A stretch of 64,000 nucleotides of DNA from an uncultured Lutimaribacter sp. (lineage in GTDB: Bacteria > Pseudomonadota > Alphaproteobacteria > Rhodobacterales > Rhodobacteraceae), in NCBI GenBank assembly GCA_913061505.1, contig CAJXSO010000007.1:1-64000 (forward strand), in the 5' to 3' direction. A program made the position numbers and the translations under genes. The notes under the pieces are model-generated. The model was given only the letters and a program-made list of their open reading frames with translations, was not told where the DNA came from and searched no databases. Positions within the stretch are counted from its first letter, which is position 1; the number at the start of each line of letters is the position of its first letter. Shown here one piece after another: positions 50,762 through 64,000 of the stretch.

Positions 50762-52192
50762 ATGCAGCAGCCAACACCGCGCCTTACGCCGCACAATGAC
50801 AGATTTCCGCCAAAGCGTTTTGGCAGGCTACGCGCATTTTGGCGCCGGCTGGCCACTTGGCTGCGGCCGCCCCCCAGCGCACAGGGCCCGCAACCTGCCT
50901 TGCTGGCCTTTATGCAAGGCGCACGCAGCCTGGGCCAGGATTGCGCGTGCCTGTTTTTGGCGCTGGATCAGGCCGATGATCTGCGCCGCGATCTGGCACC
51001 TGCGCAGCTGCAGCACCTGCGCGAAGATATTATCACCCGCCTGCGCCCGGTTTTGCGCAGCGAAGATCGGCTTGGCCCCGATGGGGCCACTGGCATTTGG
51101 GTGGCCTTGGCCCCAACAGCCAAAATGAATTTGGAAAGCCTGATCGCCATCGCAGGCCGGTTGATGGCGGCGGCTGATCAGCCCTTTGATGGGGCCGGGC
51201 GCATGCTGTATCCCAGCTGCTCGATCGGGCTGGCGCTGGCCAGCCAATGCCCGGGCGACGGCCCGGCACAGCTGGAATATGCCGCGCGCCAAGCGCTGCA
51301 GGCGGCACAGGCCCACGCCCCCGCCGCGATACGGCTTTATTCTGCCAGCCTGCCGCCGGCTATGCCCCTGCCCCAACCCAGCCGCAGCGTGATGACACAG
51401 GCGCTGCAAAAGGGGCAAATGCAGCCGTGGTTCCAGCCCCAGATCAGCACCGATACGGGCGATATCAGCGGGTTAGAGATGTTGGCCCGCTGGCACCACC
51501 CCAACAATGGCATTCTGCCCCCGGCAAATTTCTTGCCTGCCTTGGGCGATGCGCATTTGTTGCCAAACTTATGCGAATTGATGGTGCAAACCGGGCTATC
51601 GTGGCTGTCGCAATGGGATCGCGAGGGGCTGGGCATACCAGAGATTTCGGTAAACCTGTCAGCCCAAGATCTGGCCGATCCCGGCCTGGCCGACCGTATC
51701 GCATGGCATCTGGACAGGGTTAACATTGCCCCCCACAGGTTGCGGCTGGAAATCTTGGAAACCATCGCCGCCGCCCCGCCCAACGATGCCAGCACCCGCG
51801 CACTGGGGCAGTTGGCGGCGCTGGGCTGCCCCATCGACCTGGATGATTTCGGCACCGCCAATGCCAGCATCAGCGCCATTCGCCGCTTTCACGCGACCCG
51901 CATCAAAATTGACCGCTCGTTCATCAGCCATATCGAAACCGACCGTAGCCAACAGCAATTGGTGGCTGCCATGATCAGCATGGCCGAGCATCTGCAAATC
52001 GCCACCTTGGCAGAAGGGGTTGAAACCGCCGGCGCCCATGCGATGCTGTGCCAATTGGGGTGCCAACATGTGCAGGGCTTTGGAATCGCGCAGCCTATGC
52101 CGGGGGGCGATTTGGGCAAATGGCTGGCAAGCCACCGCGCAAAACAGGGATCGATCGAAAATTGGGGGCCAAAGCTGCGCCAAGCGCGCTGA
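50762..52192 (+). CDS. EAL-domain protein with degenerate GGDEF half (c-di-GMP phosphodiesterase candidate)
   Basis: 476 aa; no membrane segment. Residues ~45-200 resemble a GGDEF domain but the GGDEF motif is lost (only RLGPDGATG near residue 104). Residues ~215-460 form an EAL domain: EML in place of EAL (Glu239 kept), Asn298, Glu330, DDFGT (Asp361-Asp362), KIDRSF (Lys382) and EGVET (Glu418). Most catalytic residues are retained, so c-di-GMP hydrolysis is plausible, but loop 6 reads DDFGTANAS instead of DDFGTGYSS. AAGGGA lies upstream. Confidence 0.87.
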   Translation: MQQPTPRLTPHNDRFPPKRFGRLRAFWRRLATWLRPPPSAQGPQPALLAFMQGARSLGQDCACLFLALDQADDLRRDLAPAQLQHLREDIITRLRPVLRSEDRLGPDGATGIWVALAPTAKMNLESLIAIAGRLMAAADQPFDGAGRMLYPSCSIGLALASQCPGDGPAQLEYAARQALQAAQAHAPAAIRLYSASLPPAMPLPQPSRSVMTQALQKGQMQPWFQPQISTDTGDISGLEMLARWHHPNNGILPPANFLPALGDAHLLPNLCELMVQTGLSWLSQWDREGLGIPEISVNLSAQDLADPGLADRIAWHLDRVNIAPHRLRLEILETIAAAPPNDASTRALGQLAALGCPIDLDDFGTANASISAIRRFHATRIKIDRSFISHIETDRSQQQLVAAMISMAEHLQIATLAEGVETAGAHAMLCQLGCQHVQGFGIAQPMPGGDLGKWLASHRAKQGSIENWGPKLRQAR

Positions 52193-52291
52193 ATCCGCAC
52201 GGTTTGCCCCTTATCCCCCATATCCCCCTTGACCTTTGGGGCCGCACTCTGTTGAACCGCCTTGACACGATCAGGACAGGCGACATCCACA

Positions 52292-54134
52292 ATGGACGAT
52301 CAGAACAAGAACCTCATTCTGGCCACCGCACTTAGCTTTGCGGTTATTCTGGTGTGGTTTCTGCTGTTCCCACCCCCGGAAAAACCGGTCGACCCCAATG
52401 CCGGGGCCGTGGCCAGCCAAACCACTGAAACCGCACCCGTGGCCCTGCCCGGGCCAGGCGGCCGCCAGTGGCGCCACAGCCGCGGCCGAAAGCACCGCTG
52501 CGCGCGTGGCCATCGAAAGCGACCGCATCACCGGCTCGATTTCGCTGCAGGGGGGGCGCATCGACCAGCTGTCGCTGAAAGATTACCGCGAAACCCTGGA
52601 TGCCGGTTCGGATATTGTGACATTGCTGTCGCCGATTGGGTCTGAAAACGTTTATTACGCGGTCTATGGCTGGGCCCCCGGCACAGGGCTGAACGCCGAT
52701 CAGGTGCCCGGCCCCAACACCGTGTGGAGCGCGCCCGCCGGCGCCGAACTGACCCCAAACTCCCCCGTCACCCTTAGCTGGAACAATGGCGCCGGGCTGG
52801 AATTTTTCAGAACCATCTCGGTGGATGAAGATTACATGTTTTCGGTCAGCCAATCGGTGCGCAACACCGGGGCGGCACAGGTGGCGCTGGCGCCCTATGG
52901 CATTTTGGCCCGCCATGGCGAGCCTGCAGGCCTGAAAAAGTTTTTCATCCTGCACGAAGGTCTGATTGCCATGGCCGATGGCACGCTGACAGAAACCAGC
53001 TATGACGATCTGGATAAAGCCGGCCAGCATACCGATATCGAAGTGGCCGAAAGCGGCTGGATCGGTTTTACCGATCACTTCTGGATGGCCACAATGGTGC
53101 CCACCGAGGGCCAAGGCGCCAAATTCAGCGCCTTCCACGACGAGGCGCGCGATATTTACCAAACCACCATGCGCCTTGGCACCCAAACGCTGCAGCCGGG
53201 CCAGGAAATTTCCGTGTCCAGCCAGCTATTTGCCGGCGCCAAGGAATGGGAAACCATCCGCAACTACGAGGCAGGCAAAAAGCTGGACCCGTTCTTTACA
53301 TCGCTGATGTATGGCTTGGGCATGACCGATGCCGCCCCCCAGGGTGTAAACGGCTTTCTGGATTCGATCGACTGGGGCTGGTTCTTTTTCCTGACCAAAC
53401 CAATCTTCTTTGTCCTGCACGAACTGAACGCCGCCATCGGCAACATGGGCCTGGCCATCATTGCGCTGACCATCGTGATCAAAATCTTGGTCTTCCCGCT
53501 GGCGTATAAATCTTATGCCAGCATGGCAAAGATGAAAGAGCTGCAGCCAGAAATGGAAAAGCTGAAAGAGCGTGCGGGCGACGACCGTGCCCGGATGCAA
53601 AAAGAGATGATGGAGCTGTACAAGCGCGAAAAGGTCAACCCGGCCTCGGGCTGCTTGCCGATTCTGATCCAGATCCCGATTTTCTTTTCGCTCTACAAGG
53701 TGATCTTTGTCACGCTCGAGCTGCGCCATGCCCCCTTCTTTGGGTGGCTGCGCGATCTTTCCGCACCTGATCCCAGCTCGATCTTTAACCTGTTTGGCAT
53801 CCTGCCCTGGGCCGCCCCCGAGCCGCAAAGCCTGCTGGCAACCATCTTTATCGGCATCCTGCCTATCTTGCTGGGCGTCAGCATGTGGTTGCAGCAAAAG
53901 CTGAACCCGGCCCCCACAGATGCCACACAAAAGATGATCTTTGCCTGGATGCCCTGGGTGTTTATGTTCATGCTGGGCGGCTTTGCCAGCGGTCTGGTGG
54001 TGTACTGGATCACCAACAACACCATCACCTTTACCCAGCAATATCTGATCATGCGCAGCCACGGCTATAAACCAGACGTGTTCGGCAATATCCGCAGCTC
54101 GTTCCAACGTGGCGCCAAGAGCGCGAAAAAATGA
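52292..54134 (+). CDS. yidC: Membrane protein insertase YidC, frame broken by a one-base shift
   Basis: The family start MDDQNKNLILATALSFAVILVW opens in one frame at 52292 and reads family-like sequence to about PVALPGPG (near 52460). From about 52462 the sequence continues in the next frame (ASGATAAAE, then AIESDRITGSISLQGGRID) to the stop at 54134. Joining the two by removing one base in the G-rich tract near 52457-52462 gives 613 aa, the normal size. The downstream part has the full periplasmic domain and five membrane segments (ending TNNTITFTQQYLIMRSHGYKPD). The first frame alone would stop at 52645. Confidence 0.9.
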
Positions 54135-63003: not shown

Positions 63004-63094
63004 TATTAAGGTTCCCTTATGTCCGTTTTATTGGGCCGGGCGGTTTTAGCACCGCTCTGTTGGCCGTATCGGAACTTATGCTTTGGCAAGATAA

Positions 63095-63125
63095 AGAAAG
63101 GGCGCGGATTGCCCGCGCCCTTTCT
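63095..63125 (-). terminator. Strong stem-loop between bztA and bztB
   Basis: Perfect 13-bp stem AGAAAGGGCGCGG / 5-base loop / CCGCGCCCTTTCT, starting 10 bases after the bztA stop and 92 bases before the bztB start. The minus-strand run after it (TTATCTTG) is a poor U-tract, so partial termination or mRNA stabilisation of bztA is more likely than full stop. Confidence 0.72.
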
Positions 63126-63135
63126 GGGTAACGTC

Positions 63136-64000
63136 TTAGCGGAACGGGGGCGAGTACAGCAGGCCGCCGTTTGTCCACTGTGCGTTCAAGCCACGCGACA
63201 GGCCAATCGGGGTGTTCTCGCCGATGTTACGCTCGAACAGCTCGCCGTAGTTGCCCACCGATTTGATGGCGCGGCGTGCCCAGTCTTTGTCCAGGCCCAG
63301 CATTTCGCCCAGCGTGCCTTCGGTGCCCAACAGACGGTTGATTTCCGGGTTGTTGGTGCCGCCAGCCATTTCATCGACATTGGCCGAGGTCACGCCCAGC
63401 TCTTCTGCAGCGATCAGCGCGTTCAATGTCCAGCGCACGATATCACCCCAGTCGTTGTCGCCATGGCGCACAAGCGGGCCCAGCGGCTCTTTCGAGATGA
63501 TTTCGGGCAGAACCACGTGATCTTGCGGGTTTTCAAAGGCAGCGCGGGTTGCGGCCAGGCCCGATGCGTCGGTGGTGTAGACGTCGCATGCGCCTTCCAG
63601 ATACAGCGGCTGCGCTTCGGCGTTGGTTTCAATCGGAACCGGCTCGTAGCTGATGTTGTTGGCGCGGAAGAAATCGGCCAGGTTCAGCTCGGTCGTGGTG
63701 CCGGTTTGGATACACACGGTGGCGCCATCCAGTTCCTTGGCCGAGCTTACGCCCAGCGACTTGGGAACCATAAAGCCCTGACCATCGTAATAGTTGACGC
63801 CCAGGAAATCGAATTTCAGGTCAACGTCACGCGAGAAGGTCCAGGTGGTGTTACGTGCCAGCACGTCGATCTCACCCGAGGCCAAAGCGGTAAAGCGGGT
63901 TTTGCCGGTGGTGGGCACAAATTCTACGGCGGCAGCGTCGCCCAGCACAGCAGCGGCGATGGCGCGGCATACGCCTACATCAAAGCCATCCCAGTTGCCG
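63136..64000 (-). CDS. bztA: Amino acid ABC transporter substrate-binding protein (BztA/AapJ), 5' end outside window
   Basis: Partial; 288 codons including the stop are in view and the frame continues past 64000. The visible part reads as SBP_bac_3 from GNWDGFDVGVCRAIA. Key stretches: TGKTRFTALASGEIDVLARN, GATVCIQTGTTTELNLADFF and GDNDWGDIVRWTLNALI. Periplasmic binder of Glu/Gln/Asp/Asn feeding BztBC-D. Signal peptide and start lie outside the window. Confidence 0.93.
   Translation of the reverse strand, partial: GNWDGFDVGVCRAIAAAVLGDAAAVEFVPTTGKTRFTALASGEIDVLARNTTWTFSRDVDLKFDFLGVNYYDGQGFMVPKSLGVSSAKELDGATVCIQTGTTTELNLADFFRANNISYEPVPIETNAEAQPLYLEGACDVYTTDASGLAATRAAFENPQDHVVLPEIISKEPLGPLVRHGDNDWGDIVRWTLNALIAAEELGVTSANVDEMAGGTNNPEINRLLGTEGTLGEMLGLDKDWARRAIKSVGNYGELFERNIGENTPIGLSRGLNAQWTNGGLLYSPPFR

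Follow-up and report, generated by a model that had tools for sequence, protein, structure and literature searches.

Genes whose reading frame is broken in one species only have been described in prokaryotes as the singletons among GeneTack fs-genes (Antonov et al., PMC3711429). Shifts of +1 are also known from programmed frameshifting, exemplified by bacterial prfB and by Listeria phage PSA, where proline codons act as shift sites, and some indels, mainly in mitochondria, are compensated by frameshifting (PMC5009743). The YidC/Oxa1/Alb3 proteins are described as essential in one account of the family (PMC5766551); a search of the literature, going by titles and abstracts, found no frame-broken yidC. 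In the current study, we examined yidC in a stretch of 64,000 nt (hereafter, the window) that forms part of contig C7 of genome G000 (3,011,428 bases in 100 contigs, 99.46% complete, 0.03% contamination), where the start and the body of the gene are recorded in different frames. The locus resembles the GeneTack singletons in that the break occurs in one species only, the sequences on either side of it match a single protein in relatives, and a conserved shift signal is lacking; nothing distinguishes it from them except that the gene is essential. It is like the +1 shifts of prfB and phage PSA in its direction and in having the proline codon CCC at the junction, but differs from them in lacking a stop codon at the shift site, conservation and an unusually stable structure. 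Compared with YidC of other Rhodobacteraceae, the signal anchor, the Ala/Thr/Pro-rich linker and the periplasmic and insertase domains are all conserved, whereas the N-terminal ~53 codons lie one frame off, in this record only.

On the forward strand, yidC begins at ATG 52292 in a frame that we term frame A. Its translation opens MDDQNKNLILATALSFAVILVWFLLFPPPEKPVDPNAGAVASQTTETAPVALP and gives an N-terminus typical of Rhodobacteraceae YidC (MDDQNKNLILATALSFAVILVWFLLFPPPEKPVDPN...). This 5′ part of the gene (52292-52450, + strand) comprises the start codon, the first transmembrane segment (a signal anchor) and the beginning of the periplasmic linker, and 51 of its 53 residues are the same as in YidC of G001, the only other genome compared from the same genus. 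After approximately 53 codons, frame A turns into unrelated sequence and ends at TGA 52643-52645 (+); were the frame left unchanged, the product from ATG 52292 would be 117 aa long, and it has no Pfam match. The remainder of the gene (52451-54134, +) is open in the +1 frame up to TGA 54132-54134, according to the ORF listing, and encodes the large periplasmic domain of Gram-negative YidC (PF14849, E = 7.4e-75) and the 60KD_IMP insertase domain (PF02096, E = 5.1e-63). As recorded, the gene is not an intact, continuous yidC: the signal-anchor segment is present from 52292, one frame off the body, and the net shift between the two is +1. A codon-usage likelihood built from genes of the window assigned the junction for the most part to 52445-52469 (+) and favored 52451 most (CTG CCC / G / GGC CAG). 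The GC content of 52430-52500 is 80% (80–83% at the site itself) vs. 62% for the window, and homopolymers at the junction are short, with only CCCGGG present. Between 52338 and 52642, neither frame A nor the +1 frame contains a stop codon. The initial annotation had assigned the start and body of yidC to different frames, which the translation, the ORFs and the relatives confirmed, and it was right about the coordinates, the codons CCC GGG CCA GGC and the 613-aa length of the protein after a net change of one base. Its proposal that removal of one G mends the gene held in part; a one-base change does work, but other lesions fit equally, since the linker is 8 nt shorter than that of G001 and the alignment places this difference exactly at the junction. 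Judging from that alignment, a 9-nt in-frame length difference combined with one added base would fit equally well, as would a net loss of 2, 5 or 8 nt, and the extra G is therefore just one of several equivalent descriptions.

The yidC of G001, which is 92% identical in DNA sequence to that of the window, is continuous over 616 codons, and the bodies of the two proteins share 98% amino acid identity. In all of the ~108 other relatives fetched, the N-terminal segment and body likewise lie in a single frame. These loci range from Lutimaribacter and Roseovarius to more distant alphaproteobacteria and come from two collections with one genome per species, although a few species may occur in both. 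Outside its own genus, the YidC of the window is closest to that of Lutimaribacter. By these alignments, the match of both N-terminus and body to one continuous protein in G001 and in the ~108 relatives is beyond chance. After residue ~36, the linker is rich in Ala, Thr and Pro and differs between genera in both length and sequence, and length changes in multiples of three are therefore normal there. Nearly all relatives in the family begin with an MDDQNKNL-like sequence, and frame A of the window encodes it too. This conservation bears on the idea that the body is translated from an internal start, either TTG 52338 or a codon past the junction, yielding a YidC devoid of its normal first transmembrane segment. 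A 598-aa ORF from TTG 52338 does exist mechanically, but its extra N-terminus results from reading the conserved start out of frame and bears no resemblance to a membrane segment, and we regard such initiation as highly improbable. One of the records retrieved, JAHVJD010000009.1 (L038), is titled Nocardioides marinus and carries a Leisingera-like Rhodobacteraceae yidC; that genome is probably mislabelled.

Substitutions between the window and G001 were counted on both sides of the break. Over the 545 codons past the junction, 121 synonymous and 12 non-synonymous base differences were observed, and the first 53 codons contain five synonymous and two non-synonymous differences. This pattern indicates that both parts have been kept up as protein. 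No further stop codon or frame break was found in the body. Upstream of the gene, a promoter-like block (TTGACC - 17 nt - TTGAAC; 52229-52257, +) is intact; it lies inside 52177-52388, a segment identical in G001, and when 109 yidC leaders were aligned, its place and spacing proved conserved across Rhodobacteraceae relatives. When the genome was searched with the protein and with the PF02096 profile, each search matched this locus only, so that yidC is single-copy and redundancy does not excuse the break. On the strength of these counts, yidC was evidently under purifying selection, strong in the body, until very recently, and old decay is excluded. The frame break itself is what would recommend a decaying pseudogene, but relaxed selection, added lesions and a covering copy are all wanting in what is the single copy of an essential gene, and the probability of decay is, in our estimate, close to nil. 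The initial annotation had likewise thought decay unlikely and had preferred a sequencing or assembly indel, with a programmed +1 shift as a distant alternative. The alignment with close relatives that it called for and the search for a second intact yidC, both given above, left the break confined to the record of the window and the gene without a duplicate, and its order of preference is upheld by this singleton status, by the selection acting on the gene and by the lack of any conserved frameshift feature.

If the break were real, it might be bypassed by a +1 ribosomal slip at CCC GGG, with full-length YidC being made by a compensatory, species-specific event. Shift sites at proline codons and compensation of indels have precedents (PMC5009743), and with both frames free of stops over 52338-52642, the protein would be tolerable wherever in the linker the slip took place. 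However, CCC and GGG are both in common use here (29.7 and 22.1 per 1,000 codons, respectively), the frame-A stop lies ~190 nt downstream rather than at the site, the predicted RNA fold is no stronger than those of dinucleotide shuffles (z = -1.23), and the arrangement occurs in none of the relatives. A programmed +1 site was therefore rejected, given the absence of conservation, a stop at the site, an unusual fold or rare codons. We consider real recoding of any kind, leaky slippage included, to be very unlikely, and its strongest form, in which efficient +1 slippage, at CCC GGG or at another point of the linker, would supply the cell with the only YidC it has, as lineage-specific recoding of an essential gene, to be less likely again. 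It would be surprising for an essential insertase to depend on ribosomal slippage, and nothing observed here requires it.

In our assessment, a singleton indel in the linker of yidC, most likely an error of sequencing or assembly within low-complexity, GC-rich DNA, accounts for the break with a probability of roughly three in four. This reading is favored because the gene is the only PF02096 member of its genome and belongs to an essential family, because its body is under selection and bears no second lesion, and because the relatives are continuous, the leader is intact, and the break is a singleton in GC-rich sequence. The break thus combines a selected gene with a difficult site (80–83% GC) and is unique among the relatives. 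We infer that the record most likely errs at this base and that the cell's own sequence is sound. The locus would then be an ordinary single-copy alphaproteobacterial yidC with a single frame-breaking indel, as recorded, in the unconserved linker that follows the first transmembrane segment, and the living cell would most likely encode one continuous YidC of ~613–616 aa. An error of this kind would matter for annotation only, in that the record would wrongly present yidC as a frameshifted gene or give it a false start and a truncated product of 598 aa.

To gauge how common such breaks are, 262 kb of the genome was aligned to G001, and ~350 start-to-stop ORFs with coding-type substitutions were screened for a lasting change of phase. 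Within the 262 kb aligned, the window's genome showed no clear interior frame break other than that in yidC, and a generally error-ridden assembly was rejected on this basis. Approximately 10 further automatic hits in the same genome were judged, by inspection rather than by a formal test, to be upstream extensions of ORFs into non-coding DNA or antisense ORFs. The lack of another break over this distance means that assembly errors are rare here, which counts against an error in yidC, as does the want of a long homopolymer at the site; long homopolymers are the usual place of indel errors. Nevertheless, the assembly is good rather than perfect, and a single event of this kind in a few hundred kilobases is nothing unusual. 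The same rarity of errors can be read in favor of a genuine and very recent indel in the strain or population, or of a mixed population within a metagenome-derived assembly, the gene being either impaired or rescued only by low-level leaky frameshifting. The linker is in addition a natural indel hotspot, differing in length in nearly every relative, with the net 8 nt relative to G001 as the nearest example. On the other hand, a second yidC to cover the loss was not found and the body has experienced no relaxation of selection, and we consider a recent indel conceivable but unlikely. G001 has one clear interior break of its own, in a ComM/YifB-like gene (named by eye from its sequence) at L154 ~12282-12375 on contig C3; the gene is intact in the window's genome (L221, 16413-17927).

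Two further features of the locus were recorded. The stop codon of yidC and the start codon of the gene behind it, an ORF of 246 aa, overlap as ATGA (54131-54134), and the two genes may therefore be coupled in translation. In addition, positions 52177-52388 are identical in the window and G001, constituting the second longest exact run in the 262 kb aligned. The identical 211 nt comprise intergenic sequence and the first 97 nt of yidC, and the rest of the locus is ~92% identical. Other identical runs of more than 200 bases between the two genomes occur at 63066-63273 of the window and at 5987-6242 of L214.
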